Below, piece by piece: positions 13,547 through 21,219 of a stretch of 25,666 nt of DNA. The position numbers and the translations under genes are program-made. Location of the stretch: positions 1-25,666 of the IMG/VR virus record IMGVR_UViG_3300035682_000177. One strand, given 5' to 3'. This DNA comes from a virus. Positions within the stretch are counted from its first letter, which is position 1; the number at the start of each line of letters is the position of its first letter. The notes under the pieces are model-generated. The model searched no databases. It saw only the letters and a program-made list of their open reading frames with translations, and was not told the origin of the DNA.

Positions 13547-13912
13547 TTAAATACTTGCATCATACACCCGTTTTAAATCAGATACATATTCTCTCCAACA
13601 TGAAGCGCAGTTAGATGATTCTAAGTTAATCTTAAACACGTTTAGATATATCTTAGATAAATCACGTTGCATCAAAGGTGATAGTATATTAACGTTATTT
13701 TCGTAAAATGATTTTAAATAATTTTTATCATCATCATTTAGACATTCTGGTTTCTTATAAGGAAAGATTTTGTTTAGCAATATTTTGCGTTCTTCACATC
13801 CGCAATCAATACCGGTCAAGTCTGATATGACATCAACTACTTTCTTTATTCCTGTGGCTTTGGTGACTGCTTCAATCGAATCCCCTAACCCTCGCTTTGT
13901 TCTTTTTGCCAT
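13547..13912 (-). CDS. Conserved phage protein of unknown function before TerS
   Basis: 121 aa. It begins MAKRTKRGLGDSIEAVTKATGIKKVVDVISD, then GIDCGCEERKILLNKIFPY with three cysteine-region residues, and ends near NCASCWREYVSDL with CxxC. The GLGDxIExVTKxTGIK and CGCEERK segments are familiar from Bacteroidetes phage genomes in just this place beside terminase, but no function is known. The CxC and CxxC could bind metal. It overlaps the sigma-like gene by 28 nt. Confidence 0.7.
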   Translation of the reverse strand: MAKRTKRGLGDSIEAVTKATGIKKVVDVISDLTGIDCGCEERKILLNKIFPYKKPECLNDDDKNYLKSFYENNVNILSPLMQRDLSKIYLNVFKINLESSNCASCWREYVSDLKRVYDASI

Positions 13913-14322
13913 TGTTTTAATTTATTTTTGCAGTTGGTTAATGTATTATAAACAGAACTAAATGTTATACCAAGTTCTTTTGATAATTGTCGCATTGACA
14001 TTTTGTTGTTAATGTAAGTAAGGAACATTTTCTTATCGTACCAATCCCATGTATCTATGTAATCAAAGTATAAGGATACATCATTAACAACCTCTATGTT
14101 TTCCGGTATGTTTAGGATTTGATCGTTTAGTTCTAACTTAATCACTTTTTTACGATGCAAATCCATTGTAAGAGATCGAAGTGTAAAATAGAAATAGGCT
14201 TCGTTTATTTCTTTACCATGTGTTTTTATGTAAGCTTCTTGCACGATGTCCTCAGCATAGGCAAACTCCCCGAACTTCTCGACTTGCTTAATCCAATGTA
14301 AATGCTTTTTATACATCTTCAT
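13885..14322 (-). CDS. ECF-like RNA polymerase sigma factor
   Basis: 145 aa. AEDIVQEAYIKTHG and YFYFTLRSLTMDLHRKKV (about 19-57) match the sigma region 2 pattern. An acidic linker follows, and KMSMRQLSKELGITFSSVYNTLTNCKNKLKQW (about 108-139) is a region 4 helix-turn-helix. It could direct host polymerase to the virion genes that follow, and is a candidate reader of the TACGTTTAT leaders, although that is inference. The start is ATG at 14322; an ATG two codons later is possible. It overlaps the 50-aa ORF by 14 nt. Confidence 0.75.
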   Translation of the reverse strand: MKMYKKHLHWIKQVEKFGEFAYAEDIVQEAYIKTHGKEINEAYFYFTLRSLTMDLHRKKVIKLELNDQILNIPENIEVVNDVSLYFDYIDTWDWYDKKMFLTYINNKMSMRQLSKELGITFSSVYNTLTNCKNKLKQWQKEQSEG

Positions 14323-16965: not shown

Positions 16966-16972
16966 AATCAAT

Positions 16973-17236
16973 GTTTTAAACGATTTTAAAGTATTTTAAA
17001 GCATTTTAAAGTATTTTTAAAGTAAATAGTGTCTTTAAAGTACTTTAAACCCATTTTTAAAGCTTTTCTTTTAAAATCTTTTTTTTAAAAATTATTTTTT
17101 AAAATTCTTTTTTTTATTCTTTTAAAAGATTTTAAAGTATTTCTTTTAAAACTCTTTAAAATCACGCTTGAAGTATTCGCAAACATCGTTTTTAGGTTTT
17201 AAAAGACTTTAAAATACTTTAAAATGCTTTAATAAA
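16973..17236. repeat. AT-rich inverted-repeat element 2 (TTTTAAAG array)
   Basis: This fills the gap between primase stop and helicase start. About 18 TTTAAA cores by hand count, as TTTTAAAGTA/GC units on the left and in reverse orientation on the right. The 22-base block 16996-17017 recurs as its exact reverse complement at 17211-17232. The 26-base block 17052-17077 is the exact reverse complement of 1979-2004 in element 1. A 16-base TAATCAATGYTTTAAA also occurs in both, in the same orientation (16965-16980 and 1893-1908). No ORF or promoter was recognised inside. Confidence 0.8.
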
Positions 17237-17239
17237 CTA

Positions 17240-19498
17240 TTAGTTAATTTTCACCTGCTTTAAATAGTTATAAATAGATTGAACCGATACGTTAAGCAAT
17301 AAGGCAACCTCTTTAATATCTACCTCTGGATTAGCTTTGTATAGTTCTAAAAACTGCTGTTTCTTGTTTTTACCTTTATTCAATCCTATAATAGATTTGT
17401 ATTCATTTACCTTTGTTGAATTGCTTTTTATCTTCTTAGCTGTTGCTATAAAGTATTTGCTTAACCTCTCTGCTTTTAAGACGCTGTGCTGGCTTATAAT
17501 CATTGAGCTATCTACTACGTCATCTGAAAAGAATTTGTCCATTACATCGATTAATAATGCGAATCTCGGAATGTATGACTTTTGCTTGGGTAGCATGCTT
17601 TTCATATACTCGTTTTCGTTGTCATCATTTTGAATAGTTGTGATATCGTTAAAGATTCTTTTCCATTCCGTTTTAGCTTCGTCTGAAAACCTCGCAACAT
17701 TTGGGACTATCTCGCCATCGTCTGAATACTTAACTACATTTGCCTTTATTGATTCGTAAAAAGAAAGAACACTATCCGAATACCATTTAATCATACTATA
17801 ATCAATCTCTTTATCGTTGTAAGATTCGATAACTAAATCAGGATAAGATAAAAGCATACGATCCATAAAACCATTTTCTTTGTTTTCGTCTGTATAAAAC
17901 GTGTTAAAGATTGAAGGCTGAATACCACCAAGTACCGGAATTAATGGGTTTTCAACAAACGAACCAGCTCTACTCATTCTATTAAGTGATACCGATTTAC
18001 CAGACCAAGTAGATAACCAAAACTCAAGATCAGAACCAGCACGATACTTGTTCATATCCTTTAACCATCCTGCAAGCTCGTCTTTAAAAACACCAACCGC
18101 ATTCTTCGATTCTTGATGCAAATCAACTAAAGCCTCTAATGTAATATCATTGGCTATAAACTGCGTCTTTGATGGCTTACCTACTTTCTCATGCTGCTTT
18201 TTCTCGTCTTTGCTTAACTCGTTATATTCATTGAACTTATCAGACTTTTTGATGTAGTCCTTTATCTCCTTTGAATTTGCTTTAAGTAATGGAAATATGA
18301 TATTGTTTATCGATGGTGTTTTACCTAAACCAGCTTTTCCGACTATCGCCATCCAAAGCGTTACATTCTCACGCCAACCAGACTTTACCTCAACTTGAAT
18401 GCTATTACCTATTATAACCGATGATAACCAAAGCATAGAACAACCCATGTAATCTATTGAAGCGTCAAGCGTTTTCCTGCATTCGTTCATGTATGCTTGT
18501 AACGGTAACGGAAATATATCAATAGGAAAAATCAGATCATCTGTATTATAAACCAAAGGATGGTAATCAGCTACAATCTCTTTAGATCGTTCTATAATCT
18601 CGCTTTTTCTTCTGGTTCCGTATCCATCGTGATATAACTTAGAAGCAGATGCTTTAAAATCTCCATTGTGTTCTTTAAATGTGTAAGCACTAAACGGACT
18701 GATTAACTTTTCATGCGGGTAAATTGTTGCAGTGCTGAAAAGATACATGCAGTTTTTATCCTTGTAAACATAACCAGAATGCGGCGAATCACCTCCGTAT
18801 CTTTTTATAATATACTTATCTTTTAAATCAGCTACAATCTTAAAATCTAAGCCTATAACATCAAAAATAGAATGCTTAGCGTTATATGCTTCCCAAGGTG
18901 TAACCTCGTTTTCAATAGTTTCAATTTGTTTTTTTGTATCAATTTGTATTGTTTTTTCCTCTTCTATATAATTATAAGTTCTAAGACATGACCAAAGTAT
19001 ATTTCTATCATCCTCTGATATTAATTGAATTGATGAATATTTATTTTTAGTTATACAATTTTCATAAATTACAGCATAACCAAAACGCCCCCTGCTTTCA
19101 ATTATTGCTTCTTTCTGACCTTGTAATTTTGCTATTTTAGTATTTCCTTCAATTTTATTGCATCTATATAAAATATGATAACCATTATTTTTAGTTTTAT
19201 AAATAACAAATTTTTCATAAAAATCATCAATATTATCAGATAGAAAGGAAATTACTTCATTCCAAAATTCTTTTTGTTCTATTAATGTTCCTAAAACTTT
19301 TAAATCAAAATCAATTATTTCCAAGTCGTTATATCCTGAAACTATTGCCCATGAATCAGATTCAATTTTGTCTATTTCATCAGGTGTTAAATGATTAGTT
19401 TGATTTTTTTTCCAAGATCCTTTTGGAGTTTTATCATTATTTATTGGAATAATAGAAAATGATAATTGTGCCAGCCTTTTTAAAATACCTTTTTCCAT
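17240..19498 (-). CDS. PriPol-DUF3987 primase/helicase
   Basis: 752 aa. N-terminal bifunctional primase-polymerase domain (about 1-180) with catalytic IIDFDLK (D63, D65), GYHILYR (106-112) and SRGRFGYAVIY. The middle and C-terminal part is DUF3987: Walker A variant GKAGLGKTPS near 385-395 and GGIQPSIFNTFY with GFMDRMLLSYPD around 520-545. A C-terminal helix-turn-helix (DIKEVALLLNVSVQSIYNYL) ends it. It likely primes and unwinds the phage genome. Its ATG overlaps the preceding GIY-YIG stop (TAATG). The first 180 codons are clearly AT-richer than the rest, so the PriPol half may have been exchanged. Confidence 0.9.
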   Translation of the reverse strand: MEKGILKRLAQLSFSIIPINNDKTPKGSWKKNQTNHLTPDEIDKIESDSWAIVSGYNDLEIIDFDLKVLGTLIEQKEFWNEVISFLSDNIDDFYEKFVIYKTKNNGYHILYRCNKIEGNTKIAKLQGQKEAIIESRGRFGYAVIYENCITKNKYSSIQLISEDDRNILWSCLRTYNYIEEEKTIQIDTKKQIETIENEVTPWEAYNAKHSIFDVIGLDFKIVADLKDKYIIKRYGGDSPHSGYVYKDKNCMYLFSTATIYPHEKLISPFSAYTFKEHNGDFKASASKLYHDGYGTRRKSEIIERSKEIVADYHPLVYNTDDLIFPIDIFPLPLQAYMNECRKTLDASIDYMGCSMLWLSSVIIGNSIQVEVKSGWRENVTLWMAIVGKAGLGKTPSINNIIFPLLKANSKEIKDYIKKSDKFNEYNELSKDEKKQHEKVGKPSKTQFIANDITLEALVDLHQESKNAVGVFKDELAGWLKDMNKYRAGSDLEFWLSTWSGKSVSLNRMSRAGSFVENPLIPVLGGIQPSIFNTFYTDENKENGFMDRMLLSYPDLVIESYNDKEIDYSMIKWYSDSVLSFYESIKANVVKYSDDGEIVPNVARFSDEAKTEWKRIFNDITTIQNDDNENEYMKSMLPKQKSYIPRFALLIDVMDKFFSDDVVDSSMIISQHSVLKAERLSKYFIATAKKIKSNSTKVNEYKSIIGLNKGKNKKQQFLELYKANPEVDIKEVALLLNVSVQSIYNYLKQVKIN

Positions 19499-20226
19499 TA
19501 CGCTATAATTAAATTAGTTCTATTTCTTAACCTTCCGTTTAAATAACATTTTAATGTGCAATAATTTATTTCGTAAACTTCGCTTGCGTGTTTAATACTA
19601 TCAAAAAAAACTCCTGAAATAGTATCTAAAACAATAAAAGAACATGGGCTTATTTCTCTATCTCTAATTTTTTCTTCTTGTGTTTTTTTAATTCCAAATT
19701 TTTTATTTAGTATTCCCTTTCTACCAAATTTTATACGTTCATCCGCTGTAAATATACGCCCATACATAGGATTTTTATTTCCTGAAAATTTACCCTTTAA
19801 TGAATTAGATATTTTTTTCTTTATCTCATCAGTATGTTTTATTCCTTTTCTAAAAGAATTACCAATTAAATAATCTAAATTTTTATTTTTAGCCATCTTT
19901 TTTTTGGTTTCATCAGAAAGACTACCACTAATATCATCATAACCAGTTAATCTACAATTTAAACCATTTTTATTAGAAGCATTAAATAAATCTTGATAGT
20001 ATCTTTCAAATCTATTTAAATCATGTGACTCACATACCTCAATAATCTCAAAAATATGATTTTCAAAGCCGTATTTTTTAAATGAATTAAAAAGTCTTGG
20101 TTGATTTTTAGGTAATTTTTTTTTATAAGATTTTAATCTTACCTCTATATTAATGCTTTGACCAATATAAATTTTTCCAGTTGGATTGGTTATTTTGTAA
20201 ATACCAATTATAGGTTTTATTATCAT
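19498..20226 (-). CDS. GIY-YIG homing endonuclease
   Basis: 242 aa. GIY at 8-10 and YIG at 20-22 with R30, then NRFERYYQDLFNA carrying the catalytic Glu. The middle has NUMOD3-type DNA-binding motifs (DETKKKMAKNK, TDEIKKKISNSLKGKFSGNK), and the C-terminus (VFFDSIKHASEVYEINYCTLKCYLNG) looks like a NUMOD1/HTH module. Intact and of normal length. It lies free-standing before the primase, whose start it overlaps, in a low G+C stretch. Its likely recognition site would be the equivalent uninterrupted locus of a related phage. Confidence 0.9.
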   Translation of the reverse strand: MIIKPIIGIYKITNPTGKIYIGQSINIEVRLKSYKKKLPKNQPRLFNSFKKYGFENHIFEIIEVCESHDLNRFERYYQDLFNASNKNGLNCRLTGYDDISGSLSDETKKKMAKNKNLDYLIGNSFRKGIKHTDEIKKKISNSLKGKFSGNKNPMYGRIFTADERIKFGRKGILNKKFGIKKTQEEKIRDREISPCSFIVLDTISGVFFDSIKHASEVYEINYCTLKCYLNGRLRNRTNLIIA

Positions 20227-20234
20227 TTTTTAAA

Positions 20235-20269
20235 TAAAAAAGCCCCGAGGTAGTGAGTTTCCCGAGGCT
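20235..20269 (-). terminator. Terminator with loop complementary to upstream hairpin
   Basis: On the minus strand AGCCTCGGG pairs with CTCGGGGCT (nine pairs, two G-U), followed by TTTTTTA. It closes the DnaA-like transcription unit and sits 9 nt before the GIY-YIG start. Its loop AAACTCACTAC contains CTCACTAC, complementary to GTAGTGAG in the loop of the hairpin at 20297-20332. Confidence 0.85.
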
Positions 20270-20280
20270 ATTTTAAATCT

Positions 20281-20332
20281 GCTAAAAAACAAATTTAGCA
20301 TAAATTTTGCTCACTACTTCAAAATTTATGCT
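20281..20332 (-). ncRNA. Structured intergenic RNA with kissing-loop potential
   Basis: A perfect 13-bp hairpin (AGCATAAATTTTG at 20297-20309 with its complement at 20320-20332; 10-nt loop) is followed by a 6-bp hairpin (20281-20286 with 20294-20299) that shares three bases with it, so the two compete. Then comes the terminator. The first loop can pair over 8 nt with the terminator loop. TAAATTTG at 20290-20297 also matches the Bacteroidetes -7 box, with TTTG 22 nt upstream, so this stretch could instead include a promoter. Possible roles are attenuator, small RNA or 3'-end protection. Confidence 0.5.
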
Positions 20333-20365
20333 TTTAATTACAGCGCTAATATACTAAATAATTAT

Positions 20366-20686
20366 CTAACATCTTACCTTTTTTAAACAGTTCATAAAAT
20401 ATTTGTCTTTTATTTGCGTTAGTGCATCGTATTGGCGCAAGTTATAAATAATAGTCGAATGATCACGATTAAAAACGTGTCCTATCTCTTTTAAATTCAT
20501 TCGTGTATTTTTGCGAATCAAATAAATAGCTATTATTCGAGCCGTTACATATTCTTTTTCTCTGCATGTGCCTAAGATGTCTTTTAATCCCATTTTAAAT
20601 GCAATTCCGTTAATACATTCTTTAACACTAAACTCATTTCTTTTTGCTCCTATTAAAGGATCTGTATTTATAATTATTCCCAGCAT
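20366..20686 (-). CDS. Stand-alone DnaA domain IV (HTH) protein
   Basis: 106 aa. Residues 45-100 read as the DnaA C-terminal DNA-binding domain: ARIIAIYLIRKNTRMNLKEIGHVFNRDHSTIIYNL, with the signature RDHST at 74-78 that contacts the DnaA box in cellular DnaA. The AAA+ domain is absent. It could bind DnaA boxes in the phage or host origin, compete with host DnaA, or act as a repressor. It overlaps the coiled-coil gene by 13 nt and is the last gene of its unit. Confidence 0.85.
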   Translation of the reverse strand: MLGIIINTDPLIGAKRNEFSVKECINGIAFKMGLKDILGTCREKEYVTARIIAIYLIRKNTRMNLKEIGHVFNRDHSTIIYNLRQYDALTQIKDKYFMNCLKKVRC

Positions 20687-20997
20687 TGATCCATTATTAA
20701 ATTGATTTCTGATTCCACCTCTTCGGTGCCATGTTTCTCCATTACTGCAAATAGCTTGTTAAATGCTCCGATTAGCTTTTCTGTTCGGTGTTGCATCTGA
20801 CCAGCTTTTTCAGATCTTTGAATTGCTAATTTTATTGATTCATCTTTTATATCTTTTGCAGATTTTAAAGTTTTGATCTGAATCATTAATTTTTCCTTTT
20901 CTAGCTTTAATTCGTGGTTTGCAAACTCTAAGTTTTTAACCGCTATCTTAGAATGAATGTAAGATAAGGCTAAGGCTTTGTTTAATACTTCGTTCAT
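20674..20997 (-). CDS. Coiled-coil protein upstream of DnaA-like gene
   Basis: 107 aa, almost wholly helical and charged, with heptad-like NLEFANHELKLEKEKLMIQIKTLKSA at about 22-47 and an acidic end. No family recognised. Tight linkage with the DnaA domain IV gene suggests a joint role in replication control, or a multimerisation partner that supplies what the missing AAA+ domain would. Its ATG overlaps the preceding stop (ATGA). Confidence 0.65.
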   Translation of the reverse strand: MNEVLNKALALSYIHSKIAVKNLEFANHELKLEKEKLMIQIKTLKSAKDIKDESIKLAIQRSEKAGQMQHRTEKLIGAFNKLFAVMEKHGTEEVESEINLIMDQCWE

Positions 20998-21167
20998 CTT
21001 GTCCTTGTTACTTTAACATTGTTATTACCTAATTTAATCTCCCAGTTCAAGTCATCTGTTCTGGTGATTCTTCTTCTTGTTGACATCAAAGTATCATAAA
21101 ACTTGACATCTGCTATAAATGAGCCGTTAACGCTCAATGATAATAGTTTCTCTTTCCAGTTATTCAT
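20994..21167 (-). CDS. Small ORF (57 aa), first in DnaA-like unit
   Basis: ATG 21167 to TGA 20994, MNNWKEKLLSLSVNGSFIAD, then FYDTLMSTRRRITRTDDLNWE and a basic end. A promoter lies 22 nt upstream (21189-21219), and the stop overlaps the next ATG, so expression is likely. Predicted beta with a basic patch; function unknown. Confidence 0.65.
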   Translation of the reverse strand: MNNWKEKLLSLSVNGSFIADVKFYDTLMSTRRRITRTDDLNWEIKLGNNNVKVTRTR

Positions 21168-21188
21168 GTTATTTTCTTTTTGTTAAAA

Positions 21189-21219
21189 CAAATGTACTAA
21201 TATTTATCAAACAAACAAA
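21189..21219 (-). promoter_or_regulatory. Bacteroidetes-type promoter
   Basis: On the minus strand TTTG (21219-21216), 19 nt spacing, then TACATTTG (21196-21189), an exact match to the TTTG/TAnnTTTG consensus at near-optimal spacing. It follows the terminator at 21234-21262 and precedes the ATG at 21167. Confidence 0.75.

Follow-up and report, generated by a model that had tools for sequence, protein, structure and literature searches.

On the minus strand of a viral genome fragment, between the gene of a DnaA-like protein and that of a GIY-YIG homing endonuclease, lie two hairpins with complementary loops, the second of which looks like a terminator. The locus raises the question of whether the two loops pair in an RNA and what such pairing would do for the genes behind it. 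The window analysed here is the whole virus record of 25,666 bases, and its long open reading frames (ORFs) are on the minus strand. Read along that strand, the features of the locus are:

20366..20686, minus strand: gene of a protein with a DnaA C-terminal domain (Pfam PF08299, 1.1e-16), upstream of the RNA
20346..20353, minus strand: promoter -7 box TATATTAG, assigned from the sequence
20297..20332, minus strand: P1 hairpin, assigned by folding, 13 bp including the outer A-U pair, 10-nt loop AAGTAGTGAG at 20319-20310
20275..20296, minus strand: linker hairpin of the lowest-energy fold, the third hairpin of an earlier, sequence-only reading
20241..20269, minus strand: P2 terminator hairpin, assigned by folding, 9 bp, 11-nt loop AAACTCACTAC at 20260-20250
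20235..20241, minus strand: terminator T-run in the sequence, its first base closing P2
19498..20226, minus strand: GIY-YIG/NUMOD3 homing endonuclease gene (Pfam PF01541, 3e-10; PF07460, 1.3e-5)
17240..19498, minus strand: DUF3987 primase-type gene (Pfam PF13148, 2.6e-49), behind the endonuclease gene

Hairpins and promoter in the window

The coordinates and sequences that the sequence-only reading had given for the two hairpins proved correct on re-reading, as did its claim that the loops are fully complementary: GTAGTGAG and CTCACTAC pair at 8/8 positions, and the loop-loop duplex has a calculated energy of -11.0 kcal/mol. It had also proposed that a third hairpin competes with P1 for three bases. 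This hairpin exists, but the competition occurs only in an alternative fold; in the lowest-energy fold the hairpin is placed at 20296-20275, beside P1 and without overlap, and it is also found in the centroid of the 20341-20195 fold, where the lowest-energy version is one pair shorter. The minus-strand fold reaches -33.4 kcal/mol (z = -4.5; 0/200 shuffles equal it), and the predicted fold of 20341-20195 (z -4.9) leaves the endonuclease ATG unpaired. P2 has the build of an intrinsic terminator, a 9-bp hairpin of -13.3 kcal/mol followed by a T-run, and its stem lies 14 nt from that ATG.

The probability of an 8-nt match arising by chance between random 10- and 11-nt loops of the same base composition is 0.00037. 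None of 100 dinucleotide-shuffled windows contained a kissing score of at least 35, compared with 35.1 in the real window, in which the runner-up scores 27.0. An exact search of the whole record for the loop 8-mer and its complement returned only the P1 and P2 loops. The match in the window alone nevertheless leaves doubt, because the sequence-only reading had surveyed many features; this doubt is removed by the relatives described below.

At 20353-20346 there is also a promoter box of Bacteroidota type, TATATTAG, which that reading had missed. In Flavobacterium psychrophilum the -7 box of sigma-A, TAnnTTTG, is placed at -12 to -5 by a published study (PMC9723704), and by this spacing transcription in the window would therefore start near 20341, so that P1 begins at about +10 relative to the predicted start. 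As a promoter/short-leader string, TATATT(N)GCNNTGTAATTAAA recurs in viral contigs (L262-L332): among 77 distinct sites in other viral contigs, 65 precede an ATG within 60 nt, counting ORFs of at least 30 aa, and two contigs of ~430 kb hold ten matches each, before genes and, by eye, before tRNA-like sequences. A promoter-string search aimed at near homologues revealed TGTAATTAAA as a widespread context, with the RNA at only 1/77 distinct sites (L068, already known). The leader common to the window and L068 is therefore no proof of close descent.

Some further features of the record were seen along the way. An imperfect repeat array of the TTTTAAAGT type occupies 16970-17240, between the primase and helicase genes, and looks like a candidate iteron-type origin; arrays after the primase gene in some relatives are built from other units (AGTGTAAAGC, TGTAACC and GTGTGAAGT). 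Distant phage relatives of the DUF3987 protein carry the annotation primase/polymerase. At 13885-14322 on the minus strand a 145-aa protein is encoded that resembles a sigma factor by eye; at what is likely the corresponding position, Nonlabens phage P12024S has a protein annotated with Sigma-70 region 2, and the window protein may be a late sigma factor. The large terminase is an ordinary one, of the Terminase_3 family (Pfam), and that of Nonlabens phage P12024S is 69.9% identical to it. The terminase of OQ791282.1, named Shigella phage Henu10, is as close as those of Riemerella phages, and the host label of Henu10 may be wrong.

Loop matching in relatives

A query with the primase protein was used to collect phage loci, of which the best 80 of 131 were taken. 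Upstream of the primase, these loci often have a promoter and a terminator, and the loop of the latter is complementary to the early part of the leader; the sequences involved differ from locus to locus. For the synteny test, leaders upstream of the primase were chosen without loop information; three loci without a usable start codon and two with less than 170 nt upstream were lost, leaving 75/80 usable. A terminator lies at most 60 nt from the primase ATG in 48/75 and is absent in 27/75, and a promoter is present as well in 31/48, 23 of the 31 being distinct. When the complement of the terminator loop was sought in the 32 nt after the promoter, 20/23 distinct leaders contained one of at least 6 nt (range 6-10) and 19/23 one of at least 7 nt, compared with a complement of at least 6 nt in 7.2% of 506 pairs formed by swapping loops among phages. 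In two of the misses, L007 and L056, the hairpin register chosen hides a match that is seen in the rows of the grammar search described below; L048 is a true miss by this test.

In a wider, blind screen of 81 sources for promoter, terminator and ATG, a match of at least 7 nt was present in 59/141 cases (some of these being AT-rich chance matches), and in ~6% of the controls with swapped loops and shuffled leaders. A grammar search was then applied to both strands of 101 sources (1.11 Mb), with the mean of five shuffles as control. It returned 89 matches at a score of at least 24 (18.4 in shuffles), 49 at a score of at least 30 (1.2) and 31 at a score of at least 32 (0.0); the window scores 35.1. 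An ATG follows 62 of the matches at 24 and above, against 0.6 in shuffles, a soft control since shuffling also destroys ORFs. Previous detectors had been rejected: an early one missed the window pair because it allowed too few G-U pairs, a second gave 106 matches against 55 in shuffles, and a third, with 52 matches carrying a promoter against 7-16 in five shuffles, was replaced by the final grammar.

In an alignment of 11 rows, which had been found by kissing (the fair tests being the blind screen and the synteny test), 5/7 pairs of the kissing helix are changed on both sides and 6/77 cells are unpaired. For the whole structure, 0/500 shuffles reach the covariation score and 42/500 reach the pair-type count. 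In a covariance model the kissing helix was the only helix, so that the model offers no independent test. The nearest look-alike of the window, L068 (5617-5695), has a 12-bp P1 with the 10-nt loop AGGTAGAGGG and the P2 loop CCCTCTAC; relative to the window, 2/8 of its kissing pairs are changed on both sides and 6/8 are the same. A third member with a long P1 is L144.

The sequence-only reading had named covariance in related phages as one check to make, and relatives with uncompensated loop changes as one finding that would speak against it. Loop changes come with compensation instead, and that loop-loop pairing is a selected feature is strongly supported by these comparisons.

Members and their distribution

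Members were selected from the grammar search at a score of at least 24 with an ATG behind or at least 30 without, which yielded 71 matches, 54 of them unique, and 45 after hand curation. The nine rows dropped by hand were repeat-array or otherwise unlikely matches (L020, L030, L031, L037 and L045 minus strand, L092, L097, L074 at 842, and L045 at 13158), and L068 at 5617 and the members from loci found by a loose DNA pattern fall outside the 45. From these sequences we conclude that the predicted window RNA is a member of an undescribed phage leader-RNA family, ~75-110 nt in length, with conserved loop-loop pairing. Its layout comprises a Bacteroidota promoter, a hairpin near the 5' end, a linker, a terminator with a matching loop and usually an ATG 6-40 nt further on, and the leader-RNA structure is well supported by the comparative evidence.

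The 45 members contain 38 distinct kissing sequences, none palindromic, of 6-9 bp (10 bp in L078). The two loops of a member pair with a median energy of -9.7 kcal/mol, a value that is low by selection; with the loops of other members the figure is -1.7 kcal/mol. In 28/45 the start of P1 is no more than one nucleotide away from the predicted +1, and the median terminator hairpin is -17.8 kcal/mol. In 54 rows, a single unpaired loop base falls on the 5' rather than the 3' side in 23 cases against 1 for P1 and in 20 against 3 for P2, a bias that is suggestive only, the detector scoring a 3' base worse. Four of the 45 (L036, L039, L055 and L072), the window not among them, have an AGTA/GAAA internal loop below the P2 kissing loop, which we take to recall the loop E / sarcin-ricin motif. 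A similar P1, with a GTAG or AGG stem and an AGTSGWCG-like loop, is shared by L045, L051, L056, L059, L077, L165 and L226; the GTAG/AGG-stem P1 occurs in endonuclease-linked members, before genes of both the HNH and the GIY-YIG or T5orf172 type.

In 44/45 members an ATG in the same direction follows the terminator stem by 6-40 nt (median 17), although an ATG was a selection rule for members scoring 24-30; without this rule, an ATG follows 40/49 matches at 30 and above and 28/31 at 32 and above. Primase relatives are the commonest genes behind the RNA among the fetched loci, most of which were fetched by primase, and a downstream ORF of primase length is present in 21/45 members, as expected in such a set. 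In the rest, among the 45 or the loose-pattern members, the gene behind encodes a NUMOD4/HNH endonuclease, a GIY-YIG or T5orf172-type protein, a ResIII/DEAD helicase, or a DUF6291 or BT4734-like protein, or it is a small unknown ORF.

Twenty contigs were read nearly whole, in two pieces each. The detector found at least one member in 15/20, with 26 matches in total (23 after three likely false ones were dropped), and 6/20 contigs have two or three copies that precede different genes; the detector misses some members, the RNA of the L068 record (G016) being absent from the whole-contig list. The loop sequences differ between copies in 9/9 records with at least two copies, and copies within a record hardly cross-pair, the exception being the near-identical GTGGAAG / GTGGACG of one contig (about -7 kcal/mol). 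Among 119 loci found by the loose DNA pattern, which selects one P1 type and is not a neutral background, there were 16 matches at 26 and above compared with 2 in each of two shuffles, and 9/16 look like members.

The RNA is not obligatory for the primase locus. L001, whose primase is the closest (71% identity) among the best 80 of 131, lacks the RNA (spacer z -0.4) and apparently has a small ORF where RNA and endonuclease stand in the window; joint arrival of the two in the window lineage would fit this arrangement. An obligatory link of the RNA to homing endonucleases is not supported: in a census with four endonuclease-type queries, a leader was detected for 12/34 distinct proteins. Of these 12, L018 (element TATTTT) is doubtful; among the 34, L006 and L015 look like primase pieces rather than endonucleases, and L056 at 932 was missed by the detector despite a 6-nt match in the blind screen. 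In a search for relatives of the DnaA-like protein, 4 stretches matched a pattern and 0 were confirmed. No DNA similarity of 17000-21200 to phage records was found, and neither a grammar match of at least 28 nor a member row came from Nonlabens phage P12024S, Riemerella phage RAP44 and part of MW202828, or from 3 primase-relative loci in genome contigs.

Possible functions and known counterparts

The sequence-only reading had suggested that loop-loop pairing could gate termination and so control the endonuclease and primase genes, and the anatomy supports a place for the RNA in their 5' leader. P2 lies in the path of any transcript that reaches the endonuclease gene, be it from further upstream or from the promoter box described above. 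The simplest reading is a 5' leader with a partial terminator. The two loops would kiss within the same molecule, and RNA polymerase from the promoter would mostly stop at P2, freeing a compact, end-protected RNA; the read-through fraction would be the messenger for the endonuclease and then the primase. The kissing helix would stabilise the terminator or the fold, and the genes would thereby be kept low or timed. We lean towards this account, in which a leader limits read-through at its terminator. Another promoter would hardly fit into the 6-40 nt that separate P2 from the ATG, and a promoter-like box between the P2 loop and the ATG is present in 1/44 members. Counting against it, terminators in compact phage genomes sit near the next gene in any case, so nearness alone is no proof; L001 lacks the RNA, and a terminator is missing before 27/75 primase genes.

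No conserved antiterminator was found in the 45 members: pairing of the terminator 5' arm with upstream sequence amounts to 3.2 kcal/mol, versus 3.6 for shuffled upstream sequence, and exceeds this control in 19/45 (5.8 versus 4.4 kcal/mol in the window). Because the partner of the 5' arm is no better than shuffled sequence, a classical two-state attenuator is unsupported, and the kiss would therefore stabilise the terminator or the released RNA, or form a shape read by a protein. In the family, the loops most likely pair within one molecule. One prediction of intramolecular pairing, that the linker grows with the stem, failed (Spearman -0.57, 45 members), in a test blurred by the detector, whose P2 stems reach into the linker in the window and in some other members.

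The RNA might instead be made for its own sake, as a trans-acting or structural small RNA, the gene behind being read by leaky read-through. Its own promoter box, the hairpins near both ends, the strong terminators (median -17.8 kcal/mol, 45 members) and the stable fold (z -4.9) would suit such a product. However, the 38 distinct loops among 45 members and the differing copies in 9/9 multi-copy records make one conserved pairing target unlikely, and 28/31 strong matches (at least 32) stand directly before a gene in the same direction, which is weak evidence given gene density; overall, we regard a free small RNA as possible but unlikely. Far less probable is pairing between molecules, giving dimers or rings as in the phi29 packaging RNA. 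Each RNA does offer two non-palindromic complementary loops, and linker length does not follow stem length, but linkers of 12-37 nt permit pairing in one molecule in 39/45 if judged crudely by length, the large terminase of the phage is an ordinary one, and copies in one record do not cross-pair, bar the two near-identical ones in one contig. It is very improbable that the inverted repeats are due to chance or that they are DNA hairpins with no role as RNA: the sequences are AT-rich and full of inverted repeats, but the blind-screen, grammar, synteny and shuffled-window controls all speak against chance, and promoter and T-run fix one strand.

Another proposal fits the leader model: the kissing complex may be a shape recognised by a phage or host protein, as antitermination or processing sites are. 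With a sequence of its own for each copy and one shape for all, several operons could share a regulator without cross-pairing. Layout and loop geometry are kept and sequence is not, two or three copies with different genes behind them occur in 6/20 contigs, and 4/45 members have the AGTA/GAAA loop below P2; on the other side, there is no candidate protein, and that internal loop is absent from 41/45 by the same test, the window included. We regard recognition of this kind, like a free small RNA, as possible but unlikely; these two are the main rivals of the leader account. A more specific version, in which the element is modular and its kiss-made shape is read sequence-independently by an antitermination or decay factor, with private loop codes and a shared switch, is slightly less probable. 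If it were true, a single switch would serve several operons, mobile endonucleases among them, with no cross-talk between copies.

Taken singly, the leader, the terminator and the kissing loop are known. What is new to us is a terminator loop tied by a highly variable matching code to a hairpin near the 5' end of its own RNA and reused before many phage genes. Rfam 15 gave 0 matches at gathering score in the window and 8 relative loci; the best sub-threshold match of 20200-20400, RF04312 trpB (33.8 bits versus 59), aligns as two hairpins and a terminator. No description of such an RNA was found in a literature search that covered mainly open-access journal papers. Intrinsic-terminator leaders (attenuators) have in common with the present RNA a promoter, a structured 5' leader, a terminator and a coding sequence, but here no conserved antiterminator was found and the terminator loop matches a hairpin at or near the 5' end. 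The loop-loop helices of ColE1 RNA I/RNA II are of similar length (~7 bp) and serve intermolecular antisense control of the plasmid primer, whereas here both loops are in one RNA. The c4 antisense RNA (RF01695) is likewise encoded by phages upstream of a gene and works through complementarity within one transcript, its partner being the messenger downstream. In the present RNA it is the terminator loop that is matched; the exact 8-mer and its complement are confined to the P1 and P2 loops and do not recur in the downstream messenger, and there is no Rfam match at gathering score.

Phage homing endonuclease genes with structured RNA before them are also known: hairpins precede the T4 endonuclease genes I-TevI and segB and Aeh1 mobE, and sequester the ribosome site, according to a published study (PMC2988022). 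In the window, by contrast, the ATG lies outside the hairpins and is predicted to be unpaired, and members of the family stand before primase and helicase genes as well. The phi29 pRNA (PMC7357161) is a small phage RNA with two complementary loops that form four base pairs. Two complementary loops in one RNA are found here too, but with 6-9 bp (45 members), probably intramolecular pairing, a terminator end and diverse genes behind, in a phage with a Terminase_3 large terminase.

This is apparently an undescribed structured RNA family, seen by eye in raw sequence and backed by compensatory change across phages. It allows a clean test of whether loop-loop contact alters the efficiency of an intrinsic terminator, and it could supply orthogonal leader parts for Bacteroidota. 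For the phages themselves, it offers a clue to how they may hold down their homing endonucleases.
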